A stretch of 47,301 nt of DNA, taken from assembly GCA_001628485.1 (NCBI GenBank), contig LURR01000002.1, positions 1-47,301 on the forward strand, in the 5' to 3' direction. The stretch's first letter is position 1; every line of letters starts with the position of its first letter. The notes under the pieces are model-generated. The model was not told the origin of the DNA. It searched no databases and worked only from the letters and a program-made list of their open reading frames with translations. A program made the position numbers and the translations under genes. This document shows, in pieces, positions 16,941-24,749 of this stretch. This DNA comes from Marine group II euryarchaeote REDSEA-S11_B3N4. GTDB lineage: Archaea > Thermoplasmatota > Poseidoniia > Poseidoniales > Thalassarchaeaceae.

Positions 16941-17951
16941 TCAACCACCATACCTTTCTGCAATCACCTTGTACAACTCAAAGTCCTGAGATTCAGTGAA
17001 TGACTTCATAACTGCTTCAGGCAAGTCTACAAGCAGTTCATTAACCATCGTGAAGAACTGCCCTCTGGTATCCGAATCTGTGGACAAGGGGTCTTCACCG
17101 ACACTCTTGAACATTTCAAAACCATCTGATGAAATGAAGTCACTAGTTTTCTCATCTGGCAATTCTCCGAGTAATCCGTTGACTACCGTGAAGAAGTGAG
17201 AGAAATCCTCGTCATAACTTCGGAAGCTCTGAATGATGCCATTCACGAACTCGTCAAAGTCTAGAGTGCCCGAGTTGTCTATATCTGCTTGTTCGAAAAA
17301 CGATTTCATCGAGTCCATATCTAATTCACCTATCTTCCCTACGGAAACCCCTGTTTTCTCGGAAACTCTAGCGATGAAGTCCGTGTCTTCCATTGCCTCA
17401 ATGAATTCATCTAGGGACATCTCATTGTTAGTTGATCCAGATATTACCTCAACTGTAGGCTTTATACTGGCAAGATCCTGTTGATCTTTCTTCCTGAGAA
17501 CGATGATCTCCCTATCTAGGTCCGAACCAAACCTATCAGCGTACCTTTCCATTAGGGAGTCGCCCTTTCCTGTTGAGATTCTTTCGATCCTGTTGTATAT
17601 GCTATCTCTGGAGTTGCTAGAAATGGAAGGATCATTGGACTTTCTCCTATTCCATACCGATTTGAAATCCGAAGAGTCGTCTGTAATCGAAGATTCTGCA
17701 GGTGATGAAAGGGAGCTTGCCGCGTCCAGTAAGTCTCCGTCAGAGGATTGCTCTGGTGAGAATCCGAACTTAGGCCCCGGAGGATCAAGTGGTAGTGGGG
17801 GTATCTCTGGGAGCTCAGAATCGAGAAGTGGAGGTGGCATTGAAATTCCTGGAGGCGGCGGCGGCAAGACATCAGAAGACCCATCGGAGTCTTCTTCTAC
17901 GTCGTCTAAAGGGTCAATCACGGAGTCATTCCGCAGTTCACCACTATTCAA
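16941..17951 (-). CDS. EF-hand protein with proline-rich N-terminus, unknown function
   Basis: A 336-residue soluble-looking protein. Residues ~20-65 are Asp/Ser- and Pro-rich (LPPPPPG, IPPLPLDPPGP), low complexity. Residues ~140-215 are helical. A canonical EF-hand loop DIDNSGTLDFDE starts at about residue 223, with all calcium ligands at positions 1, 3, 5, 9 and 12. The C-terminus holds two copies of a ~34-residue helical module, each beginning FFT(V/M)VN. No membrane segment or signal peptide is seen. The start is TTG 17951; I find no in-frame ATG nearby. The downstream RDD-like membrane protein is coupled to it, so the two may work together in calcium-linked function. That is only an inference. 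Confidence 0.7.
   Translation of the reverse strand: MNSGELRNDSVIDPLDDVEEDSDGSSDVLPPPPPGISMPPPLLDSELPEIPPLPLDPPGPKFGFSPEQSSDGDLLDAASSLSSPAESSITDDSSDFKSVWNRRKSNDPSISSNSRDSIYNRIERISTGKGDSLMERYADRFGSDLDREIIVLRKKDQQDLASIKPTVEVISGSTNNEMSLDEFIEAMEDTDFIARVSEKTGVSVGKIGELDMDSMKSFFEQADIDNSGTLDFDEFVNGIIQSFRSYDEDFSHFFTVVNGLLGELPDEKTSDFISSDGFEMFKSVGEDPLSTDSDTRGQFFTMVNELLVDLPEAVMKSFTESQDFELYKVIAERYGG
16956..17195 (-). repeat. Duplicated 34-residue module inside the EF-hand protein
   Basis: The segments 17094-17195 (FFTVVNGLLGELPDE...FEMFKSVGE) and 16956-17057 (FFTMVNELLVDLPEA...FELYKVIAE) are similar over 34 residues and separated by 12 residues. The conserved positions are FFT-x-VN-x-LL-x-x-LP and F-E-(M/L)-(F/Y)-K-(S/V)-(V/I). 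Confidence 0.7.
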
Positions 17952-18009: not shown

Positions 18010-19224
18010 TTATTTGCATATCTCTGCCCATCCTTTCAGGCACAGGAACATAGCCATTGACTCCTTGACAATGATTTCATCGCCTAGTGATGGCTCTATT
18101 TGTTCTCCGGAAATGCTCGCACGTACATCATCTGCAAGAATTCGTACCTTCACAGAGCCTCCGGTGAATACGACTGCCTCTTTTAGTGGGTCGAAACAAT
18201 TGCTCGAGTCTGGATCTAAGCGATTGAGTGGCAATTCAGTAACTTTCAGCCCGGATTTCCCATGAAGGCTACCGACCCATCTAATCACTCTCTTTGTGTC
18301 CACCGTTACTACTTCGTCGGTCTCACCGGCTGTCCCAATTACTACGGATGAGTCTCCCTTGACAAGCTCCCAGAATAAGGGGGTGAGTTTTCCGAAAACC
18401 TCCAAAGATGGATCATCTTTCAGCCTAGATATCCTATCAAGGCCGAATTCATCTCTGCCGTCCGCTAGCTTTGCTAATTCCTCGATACTAGCTTTGCTTG
18501 AGGACTTGAGATTGACATTGGGAGATTTGGATCTGGTCTTTATTATCTCATGGAGTTGATCCAGGGCATGCGTCTTTCCTTCCTTTCCAGAGGATATCTG
18601 AGAAAGTTGTCCCAATGTGGAGTCGATTCCATCAATGGCCCTTTTTCCCCAACCAGAGTCTGCATTGATGGTCGATTGGATGTCTATCCCCTCTCCCCTG
18701 ATGTAGTTCACTATCTCCCTTCGTGCGTTCGAGTCTAAGTGTAACAATGAAGGATCTCTCAGATGGATATGAAACCCGCGATGCCCGGAAAATGTGAATT
18801 GTGCGTATTTTTGCTTGAATCCGAATTCCGGTTCCAGAAATTCGTTCCATAGCCTCCAGGCTTGTCCCTGGATGACATCGATCATTGCTGGGAAGTCGTT
18901 GTCAGAAACTCCTGGAAGATGGTCCCCATCGAGGTCAAAAATCAGATCTGCCCCCAACCATCCCTTCTCTGCCATCTTGCCCTTGGAGGGATCTTGGTAG
19001 TAAGCGGTGCTGTGGAAGCATGAGTGCGGCGCTCTTGTTCTGAGATAAGAGTGGAGTGAAGTCTTGTCGGGGAATGCACGATGCCTATCAGGTGGAGCAC
19101 CTCCCCATGGGATGAACATCCACTCCCTGTTCCTTAACCTCGGTGGAGTCCAAATTGAGTCTGGAGATATGGAGTCGTAATACTCGGAAAATCGGAGAGC
19201 GAATCTACTCCAGCCTCCGGCCAT
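18010..19224 (-). CDS. priS: DNA primase small (catalytic) subunit PriS
   Basis: Synthesises RNA primers together with PriL in archaeal replication. The catalytic metal motif DLDGD occurs in GADLIFDLDGDHLPG, and the family signature SGHRGFHIHL follows about 60 residues later. The early GGWSRFALRFSEYYDSI and SIWTPPRLRNREWMFIPWGG segments are typical of the archaeo-eukaryotic primase N-terminus. From ATG 19224 the protein has about 404 residues; a TTG at 19260, immediately after the upstream stop, would add 12 residues. The large subunit gene is not in the window. The small hypothetical gene at 19261-19479 precedes it on the same strand. Confidence 0.93.
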   Translation of the reverse strand: MAGGWSRFALRFSEYYDSISPDSIWTPPRLRNREWMFIPWGGAPPDRHRAFPDKTSLHSYLRTRAPHSCFHSTAYYQDPSKGKMAEKGWLGADLIFDLDGDHLPGVSDNDFPAMIDVIQGQAWRLWNEFLEPEFGFKQKYAQFTFSGHRGFHIHLRDPSLLHLDSNARREIVNYIRGEGIDIQSTINADSGWGKRAIDGIDSTLGQLSQISSGKEGKTHALDQLHEIIKTRSKSPNVNLKSSSKASIEELAKLADGRDEFGLDRISRLKDDPSLEVFGKLTPLFWELVKGDSSVVIGTAGETDEVVTVDTKRVIRWVGSLHGKSGLKVTELPLNRLDPDSSNCFDPLKEAVVFTGGSVKVRILADDVRASISGEQIEPSLGDEIIVKESMAMFLCLKGWAEICK

Positions 19225-19260
19225 GAGGCAAAGCAAGGGGCTAGGGCCATAAGTTTTCAA

Positions 19261-19542: not shown

Positions 19543-20409
19543 GTGAGCGATGACACAGTTACCATCAGAATTGGGCACTCACCGGATCCTGATGATGCTT
19601 TCATGTTCCATGCATTGACAAATGGGGCAATTGACACGGGTAACAGAAGGTATGAGCACGTTCTTGTTGATATTGATACTCTGAACAGAGAGGCAGAGAT
19701 AGGGAGCTTCGAAGTATCTGCCGTAAGCATTCACTCCTATCCTAAAATTTCTGATTCTTACTATCTGATGAATTGTGGCGCCTCTATGGGCGAGGGGTAT
19801 GGGCCAATCTTAATTTCCAAGGAGGAAATGAGTGTTGAAGAAGCAAATAGGTCAGTAATTGCAGTACCAGGAAAGAGTACGAGCTCCTATCTCGCTCTTG
19901 TGCTAGCATTGGGAGAAGTAGAGGTGGTGGAGGTCCCCTTTGACCAAATCCTTCCCGGGGTATTGGATGGAAAGTATGACTCCGGGGTAATCATCCACGA
20001 GGGTCAGTTGACTTGGTCCGACGAAGGCGCTTTCATGGTTTTAGATTTGGGCGTCTGGTGGAACAAGGAGACCGGTCTGCCCCTACCATTGGGCGGGAAT
20101 ATCGTAAGGAAGGATCTAGGAGAGTCGATGTGTGAACAAGTTTGTGACGATATCAAAAGAAGCATCGAGTTCTCACTGGAAAATCCCAAGGATGCACTGA
20201 AGGATGCAATAAAGTGGGGAAGGGGTATAGACGAGGACACCAACGAGGAATTCGTAAGGATGTACGTAAATAGACGAACAATAGACTATGGTAAAGATGG
20301 CCGCAGGGCTGTTAGAATGTTTCTGGAGAGGGGAGTGGGGCTCGGCCTAGTTAGGAGTGATTTCGATGCTAGTGGTCTGAAGTTCATTGGAGCGGGGGAG
20401 CATGACTGA
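19543..20409 (+). CDS. mqnD: 1,4-dihydroxy-6-naphthoate synthase MqnD
   Basis: Part of the futalosine route to menaquinone: it converts cyclic dehypoxanthine futalosine to 1,4-dihydroxy-6-naphthoate. The fold is that of periplasmic-binding-like proteins, and the family N-terminus IRIGHSPDPDDAFMFHAL is diagnostic. VSAVSIHSYP, GASMGEGYGPIL, VPGKSTSSYLAL, DSGVIIHEGQLTW and LPLPLGGNIVRK (with catalytic His in IHEG) follow in order. 288 residues is normal. It starts at GTG 19543. The hydroxylase-like gene overlaps its last 8 bases. mqnA and mqnE lie just beyond on the opposite strand. Confidence 0.93.
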   Translation: MSDDTVTIRIGHSPDPDDAFMFHALTNGAIDTGNRRYEHVLVDIDTLNREAEIGSFEVSAVSIHSYPKISDSYYLMNCGASMGEGYGPILISKEEMSVEEANRSVIAVPGKSTSSYLALVLALGEVEVVEVPFDQILPGVLDGKYDSGVIIHEGQLTWSDEGAFMVLDLGVWWNKETGLPLPLGGNIVRKDLGESMCEQVCDDIKRSIEFSLENPKDALKDAIKWGRGIDEDTNEEFVRMYVNRRTIDYGKDGRRAVRMFLERGVGLGLVRSDFDASGLKFIGAGEHD

Positions 20410-20881
20410 AAGGCCCGAAATTAGCGAGTTTGGATCGGTCGATCCGGCCCCCCCTGCTAGCAATGACGAAAACGTGGAGAAACTGCGCGATACCTTGTGC
20501 GACGAGGGCGAGAAGATGTTTCAGAGGATGAGGGCTCTATTCGCATTGAGGAATATCGGAGGCAGGCCCGCCGTGGATTCACTGGCAGACGCGTTTGACT
20601 CTTCGTCTGCATTACTAAAGCACGAGATTGCTTATGTTTTAGGGCAAATGCAGGATGATAATGCAGTCCCCCACCTGATTGAAAGACTGGAGGATTTGGA
20701 GGAAGATGTAATGGTAAGGCATGAGGCAGCAGAGGCCTTGGGCGCTATTGGTAACAGGATCGCCATGAGTACGCTGGAAAAGTTCGCATCGGACGAAGAG
20801 GTGGTAGTGGCGGAATCCTGCGAAGTGGCCATAGATCTCCTAAACTGGGTATCGAGCAAGAAGCTCGAGTACTCTGACTAA
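20402..20881 (+). CDS. Half-length deoxyhypusine hydroxylase-like HEAT-repeat protein
   Basis: A 159-residue HEAT-repeat protein from ATG 20402. It reads like the C-terminal half of eukaryotic deoxyhypusine hydroxylase (DOHH): the linker SVDPAPP, then MRALFALRNIGG, SALLKHEIAYVLGQMQ, MVRHEAAEALGAIG and the closing VVAESCEVAIDLL. Both His-Glu motifs of one DOHH half (KHE and RHE) are kept. Eukaryotic DOHH has two such halves that together bind a di-iron centre with four His-Glu pairs. A half-size protein could rebuild the site as a homodimer. DOHH completes hypusine on eIF5A; no aIF5A or deoxyhypusine synthase gene is in the window. It overlaps mqnD by 8 bases and mqnA at the stops by 4 bases. 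An unrelated HEAT role cannot be excluded. Confidence 0.75.
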   Translation: MTERPEISEFGSVDPAPPASNDENVEKLRDTLCDEGEKMFQRMRALFALRNIGGRPAVDSLADAFDSSSALLKHEIAYVLGQMQDDNAVPHLIERLEDLEEDVMVRHEAAEALGAIGNRIAMSTLEKFASDEEVVVAESCEVAIDLLNWVSSKKLEYSD

Positions 20882-21675
20882 ATGTGGTCGAACCAGTTCG
20901 GATTGGATTCTATCCCGCAGACTTCCTCTAGGAAGACACTCAAACCTCTGATTGACTCTGGACTGAGTAGGTTAGAGACTTCATTGGCATAGTATTCGGC
21001 CACTCTTTCGACAGATAGGCTAACCTTCTTCGAAGCGTCTGAAATAACAATTTTCCTTACTTCCTCTTGTTCAAGAAAATTGTTGTAATTGCTTAGCATC
21101 AATTCTCTTGCCTTGCTTATTGAATGGTCGTCGGAGTCTTTCCTGGCGGCGAATACCCCGAAGACCATCGGCAGACCAGTAATCTCTACCCATTCCCTAC
21201 CGAGGTCCATCCTAACTAACTCAGGATTATTGATGGCAGCGGCTATTGCTCGATCCCCAATTATTAGTGCTCCATCGCATTCATCAAGCATCGAGTCCAT
21301 ATCAGGCCCCATTTTGACATATTTTGGATCAAGGCCCCTCTGCTTTAGTATCCATCTCATCAGCATATTGGAAGTCGAGGAGTCTGAGGGTAATGCGATG
21401 TCCCTCATTGTCTCAATGGGCCTATTTCCGAACAGAAGAACCGATCCAACAGACTCACGGCCCACTATTCCTATATCCCTGATGAGACTAAGTTTTCCCA
21501 GATTAGATGCATAGTCGGCTGTTGGAATTGGGGCAGTGATGCAGTCTCTACGTAGAAGATGGCCGGTCAACCAAGACGGAGGTGCGGAGAGAACCTTCCA
21601 GCTGTCAGGAATCGTGTGGAAAACCGGATCACAGTTGATGAACGATACTCTGCCAAGAACTCCATCCCATGACAT
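20878..21675 (-). CDS. mqnA: Chorismate dehydratase MqnA
   Basis: First step of futalosine menaquinone synthesis: chorismate to 3-enolpyruvyl-benzoate. It is a 265-residue binding-protein-like fold with family features: RVSFINCDPVFHTI at the N-terminus, CITAPIPTADYASN, IGIVGRESVGSVLLFG, LPSDSSTSNMLMRWIL and GALIIGDRAIAA. The length is normal and it starts at ATG 21675, four bases after the mqnE stop, so mqnE-mqnA form an operon. It converges with the hydroxylase-like gene. Menaquinone would serve a membrane respiratory chain. Confidence 0.9.
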   Translation of the reverse strand: MSWDGVLGRVSFINCDPVFHTIPDSWKVLSAPPSWLTGHLLRRDCITAPIPTADYASNLGKLSLIRDIGIVGRESVGSVLLFGNRPIETMRDIALPSDSSTSNMLMRWILKQRGLDPKYVKMGPDMDSMLDECDGALIIGDRAIAAAINNPELVRMDLGREWVEITGLPMVFGVFAARKDSDDHSISKARELMLSNYNNFLEQEEVRKIVISDASKKVSLSVERVAEYYANEVSNLLSPESIRGLSVFLEEVCGIESNPNWFDHI

Positions 21676-21679
21676 GGGT

Positions 21680-22828
21680 TCACTGACCTATTATTGGAAG
21701 TAGTTTGCCTTCCCTCTTTGATTTAATTTCCAAAGGCTCGAATCGCGTATATGTGGAGTCTCTCTTCACAGGAATCTGGCCCGCAGAGTCAATGAGGTTT
21801 CCTAGCTTGTATGAGTCGTAGTTCAAACTTGTAGTACTACCTGCAACATGCATTATTTCCTCGTGACCGACAGTTCCGTCTATGTCATCTGCTCCAGAGT
21901 TGATTGCAATTGTCGAAAGATGATCTCCAATATTCATCCTGTAAGCCTTGATGTGGGGAATATTGTCCAGCATTATCCTAGAAAGGGAAATTATTCGAAT
22001 CACTTCCTCGCCAGATGCTAGTCGTGCCTCCGGCAATCTCGTATTATCCTTCAGAAATGGGTATGGTACGAAACACTGGAATCCTCCAGAGGAGTCTTGC
22101 TGTTCTCTCAGTTTGTTCAGGTGAGTGATGCGATCTTGGATTGTTTCGATGGTTCCGAAAAGCATGGTGCAATTTGTTGGGATTCCTAATTCGTGTGCAA
22201 TGCCGTGTATTTCCAAGTATTCGGAAGACTTCTCCTTACCCATACAGATACGATCCCTGATAGTATCGACAAGAATCTCTGCCCCTCCTCCTGGTAGGGA
22301 GTCGAGGCCTGAATCTCTCAGAATAGTCAGTGTCTCCAGAACTCCCAATCCAGATTTGGATGCAATATGCTTTACTTCGACAGCAGTTAATGACTTGATG
22401 CTTAATCCAGGAAACCTCTCCTTGGTAAGTCGATAAATCTCTGAATAGTGATTTATGTTCCAATCTGGGTGGAGCCCACCCACTGCATGCACCTCGTCGA
22501 TTTTCCCTTCGAATGGTTCTATCCTGGATACGAACTCTTCGGGAGTAAGAGAATATGCATCTCTGTGCCTTGGACCCTTTCTGAAAGCGCAGAATCTACA
22601 TGCAAGAGTGCAGACATTCGTTGTATTTACATGGAGGTTTTCATTGAAGAATATATTATCTCCAAACCTTGCCTTTTTGATCATCATCGCTAGAGCGGTA
22701 AGGCCAGGCAGTGGGGCGTTAGTATGCAATTCCTCTCCCAGCTCACAAGATACTCGTCCATCATTGATTAAACTGTGAAGGGTTTTGCTGAGTAAAACGT
22801 CATTTTTGACTGAAATTGGAATTGACAT
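21680..22828 (-). CDS. mqnE: Aminodeoxyfutalosine synthase MqnE (radical SAM)
   Basis: A radical SAM enzyme that joins 3-enolpyruvyl-benzoate to SAM-derived adenosyl radical. The 4Fe-4S motif is CTLACRFC (CX3CX2C) after HVNTTNV. SLTAVEVKHIASKSGLGV, SLPGGGAEI and TMLFGTIET with FQCFVPYPF favour MqnE over the paralogue MqnC. ATG 22828 gives 382 residues, close to the family length; an in-frame GTG at 22915 would add 29 residues. It is upstream of mqnA in a two-gene operon and diverges from the transketolase genes across an AT-rich stretch. MqnB and MqnC are not encoded in the window. Confidence 0.88.
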   Translation of the reverse strand: MSIPISVKNDVLLSKTLHSLINDGRVSCELGEELHTNAPLPGLTALAMMIKKARFGDNIFFNENLHVNTTNVCTLACRFCAFRKGPRHRDAYSLTPEEFVSRIEPFEGKIDEVHAVGGLHPDWNINHYSEIYRLTKERFPGLSIKSLTAVEVKHIASKSGLGVLETLTILRDSGLDSLPGGGAEILVDTIRDRICMGKEKSSEYLEIHGIAHELGIPTNCTMLFGTIETIQDRITHLNKLREQQDSSGGFQCFVPYPFLKDNTRLPEARLASGEEVIRIISLSRIMLDNIPHIKAYRMNIGDHLSTIAINSGADDIDGTVGHEEIMHVAGSTTSLNYDSYKLGNLIDSAGQIPVKRDSTYTRFEPLEIKSKREGKLLPIIGQ

Positions 22829-22983
22829 TCTTGATAGTTCTTCACGCCAATTACGCTCAGAGACTGAGAAGTCCGAATTCACGAATGTGCGAACTAATGG
22901 TATGATTTGAATCACTCTACTGGAAGGTTAAACAAAAAATCTCATTGAAAACCATCAATAGCCCTGACGCGCCACTTTTGCAC

Positions 22984-23811
22984 ATGGGAGACGGTACCGA
23001 GGTAGATGTTGGTGAGCTCGAGGAAATGGCTAGGAGATGCAGGGTTGACATTGTTAAAATGACGCATGCGGCAAAATCTGGACATCCTGGAGGTTCACTT
23101 TCATCGATAGACTGTATGGTCGCACTTTATGGTACATGTCTTCGTTTTGATACAAGCAATCCAGATTGGGATGATCGAGATAGATTCATCATGAGCAAAG
23201 GTCATGCAAGTCCTGCTATGTACTCCATTCTACATCAAATGGGAGTCCTTGATGAGGACGACATCATGGGATTCAGGACGCTTGGGTCTGTTTGCCAAGG
23301 TCACGTCGATATGAATTGGACCAAGGGGGTGGATTTCTCTGCAGGAAGTCTGGGAATGGGTTTGTCATTCGGTCTCGGGTGCGCTCTTTCAGCCAAAATG
23401 GATTCAAGTCAAAGGAGAATTTGGGTAATGTTGGGAGACGGGGAAACTCAAGAAGGCCAGATATGGGAGGCTGCTATGGCAGCGAACTACCACAATGCAA
23501 CCAACCTTAGGGTAATTGTTGATCGCAATAGGATTCAGAATGATGACTTCATGGATGTACAGATGGAAATTGGAGATATTGGCGAGAAGTTTCGATCTTT
23601 CGGTTGGACGGTAAAGGAAGTAGATGGCCATGATATGTCTTCTTTGGTTGATGTAGTAGATTGGGCTAACAGCGAAGATGGGGGTCCTGTCGCTATTGTG
23701 GCGAATACTATCAAAGGAAATGGCGTTTCATTCATGGAGAACAATCCATCCTTCCATGGAAAGGCCCCGAATGATGAAGAGTTGCGAATTGCATTGGAGG
23801 AGCTATCATGA
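22984..23811 (+). CDS. Transketolase, N-terminal subunit
   Basis: Carries the thiamine diphosphate-binding domain of a two-subunit transketolase, which moves two-carbon units in pentose metabolism. Seen are SGHPGGSLSSID, SKGHASPAMY, GSLGMGLSFGLG and the TPP/Mg2+ motif GDGETQEGQIWEA with DRNRIQND. From ATG 22984 there are 275 residues; a TTG at 22945 is an alternative start. An AT-rich TATA-like segment at 22926-22942 favours the ATG. The C-terminal subunit overlaps by 4 bases (ATGA). Split transketolase is normal in archaea and some bacteria, not a frameshift. Confidence 0.92.
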   Translation: MGDGTEVDVGELEEMARRCRVDIVKMTHAAKSGHPGGSLSSIDCMVALYGTCLRFDTSNPDWDDRDRFIMSKGHASPAMYSILHQMGVLDEDDIMGFRTLGSVCQGHVDMNWTKGVDFSAGSLGMGLSFGLGCALSAKMDSSQRRIWVMLGDGETQEGQIWEAAMAANYHNATNLRVIVDRNRIQNDDFMDVQMEIGDIGEKFRSFGWTVKEVDGHDMSSLVDVVDWANSEDGGPVAIVANTIKGNGVSFMENNPSFHGKAPNDEELRIALEELS

Positions 23812-24749
23812 GTGCGCCTACATCAGGAGGTGCATCCAGAGATGGATATGGGAAGGGACTTCTGCGTATTGCAGAAGACCCTCGTGTAGTCGTGTTAGAG
23901 GCTGATCTGGGGAAATCGACTAAATCATGCCACTTTCGTGACGAATATCCAGACAGAACTGTTTCATTGGGAATTGCAGAGCAGAATATGATGCTTGTTG
24001 CGGCTGGTATGGCGTCTTCAGGGAAAATCCCATTTGCTAGCACGTTCGCAATATTCACAGAAAGGGCTTTCGAGCAAGTTCGTAATGGGATTGCTCGTCC
24101 TGGACTACCTGTCCATATCTGCGGTAGCCATGGCGGAATCCATACTGGTACAGATGGTAGCAGTGCTCAGTCAATAGAGGATTTAGCCGTCTACAGAACA
24201 ATTCCTAAAATGACTGTGATTCATCCTTGCGACGATATTTCAGCGGAGGAGTTAACCGCTCAACTACTTGATTTGAATGGCCCGTCATACATGAGGACAG
24301 CTCGGAATAAGGTCCCAAGAATGTACGAAGATGGTTCAAACTTGAGAATTGGGTCTGGTTCTGTTCTCAGAGAAGGAGGGGACTTGGCAATCATCTCATG
24401 TGGGGTAATGGTGGGAGTCGCTATCTCTGCTGCAGAAACTCTCTCGAATGAGGGCATAAGCTGCACGGTGGTCGATATGCATACAATCAAGCCGATTGAC
24501 GTGGAGCTAATTGCGGAACTATCAGAATCCTGCGGAGCGTTTGTCACTGCCGAGGACCACTCTGTGATTGGCGGTTTGGGAGGGGCTCTTGCAGAGTGGC
24601 TTTCGACCAATACCTCGACTCCCTTGGAGATGGTCGGAGTTAGAGATAGTTTTGGACAGAGTGGTGGCTCTTCGGAACTGATGGACTTGATGGGTTTGAA
24701 TGAAGCTGGAATCTGTGAGGCCGCAAGAAGAGCGATTAGTAGGAAATAA
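23808..24749 (+). CDS. Transketolase, C-terminal subunit
   Basis: 313 residues holding the pyrimidine-binding and C-terminal domains of transketolase. The catalytic Glu lies in SLGIAEQNMMLVAAGMA, followed by FASTFAIFTERAFEQVRN, GSHGGIHTGTDGSSAQ, DLAVYRTIPKMTVIHP and SYMRTARNK. The C-terminal domain has DMHTIKPID and TAEDHSVIGGLG. It pairs with the upstream subunit (ATGA overlap) to make one enzyme. A 1-deoxyxylulose-5-phosphate synthase is excluded by the split architecture and by the mevalonate-type isoprenoid genes nearby. Confidence 0.92.
   Translation: MSAPTSGGASRDGYGKGLLRIAEDPRVVVLEADLGKSTKSCHFRDEYPDRTVSLGIAEQNMMLVAAGMASSGKIPFASTFAIFTERAFEQVRNGIARPGLPVHICGSHGGIHTGTDGSSAQSIEDLAVYRTIPKMTVIHPCDDISAEELTAQLLDLNGPSYMRTARNKVPRMYEDGSNLRIGSGSVLREGGDLAIISCGVMVGVAISAAETLSNEGISCTVVDMHTIKPIDVELIAELSESCGAFVTAEDHSVIGGLGGALAEWLSTNTSTPLEMVGVRDSFGQSGGSSELMDLMGLNEAGICEAARRAISRK

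Follow-up and report, generated by a model that had tools for sequence, protein, structure and literature searches.

A stand-alone protein homologous to one half of eukaryotic deoxyhypusine hydroxylase (DOHH) is encoded in the genome of a marine group II euryarchaeote, and it probably acts as a homodimer that rebuilds the di-iron site of the two-half enzyme and hydroxylates the deoxyhypusine of aIF5A. Hypusine is an amino acid found on a translation factor, and DOHH is the iron enzyme that finishes it. Marine Group II archaea are common in the sunlit ocean, and two paired copies of the half that they carry may form the enzyme, supposedly missing from archaea, that completes hypusine. In papers up to 2021, DOHH has been stated to be absent from archaea and bacteria (PMC3306375), and archaea have been stated to have no DOHH orthologue (PMC5178350, PMC8153317); the same three papers report that some archaea contain hypusine. 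No description of an archaeal DOHH was found in the literature searched, a scope outside which lay preprints and most subscription journals.

The gene lies on the forward strand at 20402-20881 of the window, that is, of the whole stretch of 47,301 nucleotides analysed here, which lies on contig 12 of a genome of 1.3 Mb. As a sequence-only reading of this DNA had stated, the open reading frame encodes a product of 159 residues; the frame begins with ATG and shares its first 8 bases with the tail of the mqnD-like gene upstream. Close relatives of the gene differ from it mainly at third codon positions (2, 5, and 28 differences at positions 1, 2, and 3 in the comparison with locus L003), so that it can be regarded as a real protein-coding gene. 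Its near-identical and close loci come from assemblies of uncultured Poseidoniales/Thalassarchaeaceae (Marine Group II), and the window's own genome holds one copy only. Two copies occur in a few genomes, which may include assembly contamination; in G370, for example, a genome of the other family, one of the copies sits on a 3.5 kb contig and shares 76% identity with the protein of the window. The annotation as a half-size DOHH homologue relies on the reading frame, phmmer searches, alignment, an AlphaFold model with four HEAT hairpins, and Foldseek.

Among PDB sequences, the best phmmer match of the protein is human DOHH (4d4z, E 4.2e-74), followed mostly by designed alphaReps, which bears out the resemblance proposed before. 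This likeness goes beyond chance and beyond a generic HEAT likeness. The more specific claim that the protein matches the C-terminal half stands only in part: the C half is indeed matched (129.9 bits, over query residues 5-148, SVDPAPP included), but the N half is matched separately as well (119.8 bits). When 128 shared core columns are compared, the protein is 48% identical to the human C half and 46% identical to the N half; between the two human halves the figure is 40%. For this comparison both human halves were extracted from the phmmer alignment, in which residue numbers of the chain are five higher than in the published numbering. The SVDPAPP linker, whose presence had also been noticed before, was located by alignment at residues 12-18 (20435-20455, forward strand); in human DOHH it stands just before the C half, and its Asp14 and Pro15 are invariant in 116 archaeal sequences. 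It is this element, and not the overall match, that is particular to the C half. Relatives were found neither on viral contigs, for which both the half-size protein and the human C half served as queries, nor on plasmids (tblastn).

The di-iron site of human DOHH is built by H56, H89, E90, H207, H240, and E241, and E57, E90, E208, and E241 are among the residues that bind deoxyhypusine (PMC9117371). All six iron ligands, together with E57 and E208, have equivalents in the half-size protein. His74-Glu75 (20621-20626, forward strand), within the first His-Glu motif SALLKHEIAYVLGQMQ (residues 69-84), corresponds to human H56-E57 and H207-E208, while His107-Glu108 (20720-20725, forward strand), within the second motif MVRHEAAEALGAIG (residues 104-117), corresponds to H89-E90 and H240-E241. 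Both pairs, as picked out by the sequence-only reading, are invariant in 116 of the 116 non-identical archaeal sequences over which invariance was scored; R50, S69, and E111 are invariant too. Gly81 (20642-20644, forward strand), the equivalent of the glycine in the human HELAYCLG and HEVGYVLG motifs, is likewise invariant but not diagnostic, because the HEAT controls also have it. At positions 74, 75, 107, and 108, neither His nor Glu is found in the HEAT_PBS controls from the same phylum or in one alphaRep. As H74, H107, and E108 never vary, each archaeal chain holds a full set of ligands for a single iron.

These data bear directly on the reading of the protein as a non-catalytic, PBS-lyase-like HEAT scaffold, which would fit its profile annotation, since Pfam recognizes only HEAT-type repeats and the best NCBIfam match is NblB, below threshold. 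Such a scaffold is nevertheless highly improbable: the His-Glu pairs kept in all 116 sequences have no counterpart in generic HEAT proteins, DOHH is the best match both by sequence and by fold, and in the tree a branch of 100/100 support splits the archaeal halves and both human halves from four HEAT controls, which places the half-size protein on the DOHH side and not with the PBS-lyase-like proteins. The half-size homologue very likely has a catalytic function.

The predicted fold points in the same direction. An AlphaFold2 model computed from 44 Poseidoniales sequences has a mean pLDDT of 89 and shows eight helices arranged as four hairpins, with ends of low confidence. When this model was compared with the PDB by Foldseek, chains A and B of 4d4z came first (E 1.2e-10, TM 0.79 by query length), and the following matches were mostly designed alphaReps with E of 1e-5 or weaker; nothing significant was matched in a library of viral structures. 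The identification as a half-size DOHH homologue, which had been proposed from the letters of the DNA, is in this way upheld by sequence, invariant ligands, tree, and modelled fold.

According to the mechanism that we propose, each chain would contribute the ligands for one iron (His74, His107, and Glu108) and the equivalents of the substrate-binding glutamates (Glu75 and Glu108). Two identical chains would pair about a two-fold axis, like the symmetrical dyad of the human DOHH halves, and would thereby form a di-iron, O2-activating site. Given that every chain has a complete single-iron ligand set, such a dimer would restore the arrangement of the human site, and because the window's own genome has a single copy of the gene, four His-Glu pairs could come only from two copies of the same chain; we infer that a homodimer is the simplest route to them. 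Deoxyhypusine synthase (DHS) would first put deoxyhypusine on the lysine of the SKPGKHG loop of aIF5A, and the di-iron site would then hydroxylate it to hypusine. A homodimeric deoxyhypusine hydroxylase is most likely what this gene encodes, and if so, it would provide a one-domain model of an unusual di-iron oxygenase.

Both partners needed for this reaction scheme are encoded in these archaea. DHS is present in 22 of 22 genomes examined, half-bearing and half-less alike, and aIF5A was found in 23 of 25. The window's own genome carries one aIF5A, with the loop SKSKPGKHGSAK in which SKPGKHGSAK is intact, and two DHS-family (PF01916) genes (G000 C4:48126-49016 and C6:34000-34899). Of these two genes, which most relatives also have as a pair, one is canonical (E 1e-86) and the other divergent (E 5e-41); the product of the latter may act on another amine.

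The PGKHG core is kept in the loop of every aIF5A read (loci L133 and L169-L190). Three positions beyond the modified lysine, all half-bearing genomes read have Ser or Ala; three half-less genomes have Glu, the residue that stands there in many Thermoplasmatota. When searched as a DNA pattern, PGKHGEA occurs in 184 of 390 genomes, among them no sampled Poseidoniales and none of the nine other half-bearing genomes (Fisher p 1.5e-5 at the genome level outside the window's own class, with totals counted by hand). The absence of GKHGEA would be consistent with a DOHH pocket whose acidic lining disfavours an acid at this +3 residue, and the Ser or Ala of the loop and the half-size DOHH possibly represent an enzyme-substrate match. 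The association is confounded by ancestry, because GKHGEA is also missing from half-less Poseidoniales and from the half-less family f17.

Matches to the half-size protein at E 1e-8 or better were obtained in 108 of 390 Thermoplasmatota genomes. Three of them are weak, near 1e-9, and the two of these that were fetched are generic HEAT proteins devoid of His-Glu pairs. Conservation of the gene extends to about 105 of the 390 genomes. The strong matches belong to Poseidoniales of both families and to nine genomes in six other families, three of which belong to one small class; in a scan of genome contigs, the best 80 of 100 confirmed loci were all of marine euryarchaeal or Poseidoniales type (Thermoplasmatota). 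COX1, the haem-copper oxidase subunit, was detected in 191 of the 390 genomes, including all nine half-bearing genomes outside Poseidoniales. Counted by family outside the window's own class, 13 of 51 families have COX1, and all six half-bearing families are among them (p 9.5e-5, uncorrected for kinship). The half-size gene is thus confined to oxidase-bearing lineages in the sampled genomes; the window's own genome (92% complete) gave no COX1 match, and most of its congeners have COX1. This co-distribution lends indirect support to a predicted O2-dependent hydroxylation, although, like the association with the aIF5A loop, it is confounded by shared ancestry.

Several genera of Poseidoniales have no half at otherwise intact junctions, yet they retain DHS, with aIF5A in all but one genome examined, which shows that the half-size DOHH is dispensable. 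Clean loss is suggested by the loci L194 (G124), L191-L193 (G053, G057, and G089), L196, and L197, and these Poseidoniales would serve as natural comparison strains.

The gene has menaquinone genes as neighbours. Upstream lies an MqnD-like gene of the VitK2_biosynth family (19543-20409, forward strand; PF02621, E 3.5e-69), which is not part of the proposed function, and downstream, in convergent orientation, an MqnA-like gene of the same family (20878-21675, reverse strand; PF02621, E 1.8e-43). An MqnE/MqnC-like radical SAM enzyme (21680-22915, reverse strand; MqnE TIGR03700, E 3e-107, below the equivalog cut-off) and the DNA primase small subunit PriS (18010-19260, reverse strand; profile matches) are also encoded nearby. 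Throughout the sampled Poseidoniales mqnD adjoins the half, mqnA, mqnE, and priS are mostly close, and the genes often overlap or abut. Eukaryotic DNA in the assembly, a suspicion that the high likeness to a eukaryotic enzyme might raise, can be dismissed in view of these archaeal flanks (PriS and the mqn genes), whose gene order is repeated across dozens of separate assemblies. Elsewhere in the window, transketolase is encoded by two adjacent genes for its N- and C-terminal parts, with a 4-base overlap (22945-24749, forward strand), and a 336-residue protein with an EF-hand-like stretch DIDNSGTLDFDEFV (16941-17951, reverse strand) matches nothing in Pfam or NCBIfam at E 1e-5.

That mqnD, and in most cases mqnA and mqnE too, lie consistently beside the gene in sampled Poseidoniales raises the question of whether the protein could be a DOHH-type di-iron hydroxylase that acts on another substrate, for instance in menaquinone synthesis. 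There is little probability in this reading. Among 22 genomes, mqnD is present without the half in seven and the half without mqnD in five; six Poseidoniales genomes that lack the half still have the mqnD-priS or mqnD-mqnA junction. Since the half and mqnD dissociate in both directions and the junctions are kept in its absence, the link looks positional rather than functional, and a role as a gene of the menaquinone (futalosine) pathway was rejected as the main reading. Moreover, the nine half-bearing genomes outside Poseidoniales have different, unrelated neighbours, save for two genomes of one family, as is expected of a stand-alone protein-modifying enzyme, and the equivalents of the glutamates that bind deoxyhypusine are invariant.

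With respect to the origin of the gene, the single-half protein could be a living representative of the ancestor from which duplication and fusion of such an archaeal gene gave rise to eukaryotic DOHH, a scenario that we put forward tentatively, at somewhat less than even chances. Archaea would then be the source of one part of the hypusine pathway that has passed for a eukaryotic invention, and the half-size DOHH might show what the enzyme looked like before it was duplicated. The opposite direction, in which the half is a reduced copy derived from the C half of a eukaryotic DOHH gained by gene transfer, with the same enzyme activity, is rather unlikely. It would account for the retention of SVDPAPP, for the nearly full-length alignment to the human C half, and for the fact that, of the two human halves, the C half is the closer by identity to 113 of 116 archaeal sequences. 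It is harder to reconcile with the identity of the archaeal halves to the human N half, which at a mean of 44.6% exceeds that of the human C half itself (39.8%), and with the presence of the gene, deeply diverged, in seven Thermoplasmatota families besides the window's own. Within the DOHH group, the human halves form long branches without firm placement: in an analysis of about 130 columns with human DOHH as the sole eukaryotic sequence, the AU test rejects neither a tree that keeps the two human halves together (p 0.43) nor one in which the human C half joins two archaeal rows (p 0.32).

A half-size homologue equipped with every catalytic residue makes the question of archaeal DOHH directly testable with one small gene. 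The sequence-only reading had seen in it a candidate for the archaeal hydroxylase that makes hypusine, which is too broad. In Sulfolobus solfataricus, aIF5A carries hypusine and the DHS makes deoxyhypusine only, so that a further enzyme is required (PMC6105217); a hypusine protein of S. acidocaldarius is known through Bartig 1992, as cited in PMC6105217. In the control genomes of S. acidocaldarius and Methanocaldococcus jannaschii, no match to HEAT_PBS or HEAT_2 was found, and since this holds for S. acidocaldarius, the half-size DOHH cannot be the general archaeal enzyme. The Sulfolobus hydroxylase probably belongs to another family, which would have in common with the half the proposed second-step reaction, from deoxyhypusine to hypusine (PMC6105217).

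With the HEAT_PBS and PBS-lyase-like proteins (NblB, CpcE, MTH187, and the designed alphaReps), the archaeal half shares the HEAT_PBS repeat fold, whereas the controls of this type lack His-Glu pairs and lie across the 100/100 branch. Eukaryotic DOHH (EC 1.14.99.29; human 4d4z, yeast Lia1) shares with it the HEAT hairpins, the iron ligands of one half, the substrate-binding glutamates, and SVDPAPP. The eukaryotic enzyme is a single chain of eight hairpins with four His-Glu pairs, while the archaeal half is a free protein of four hairpins with two pairs; on account of these features and of its 159 residues, it is named here a half-size homologue of DOHH and not a member of the two-half family.
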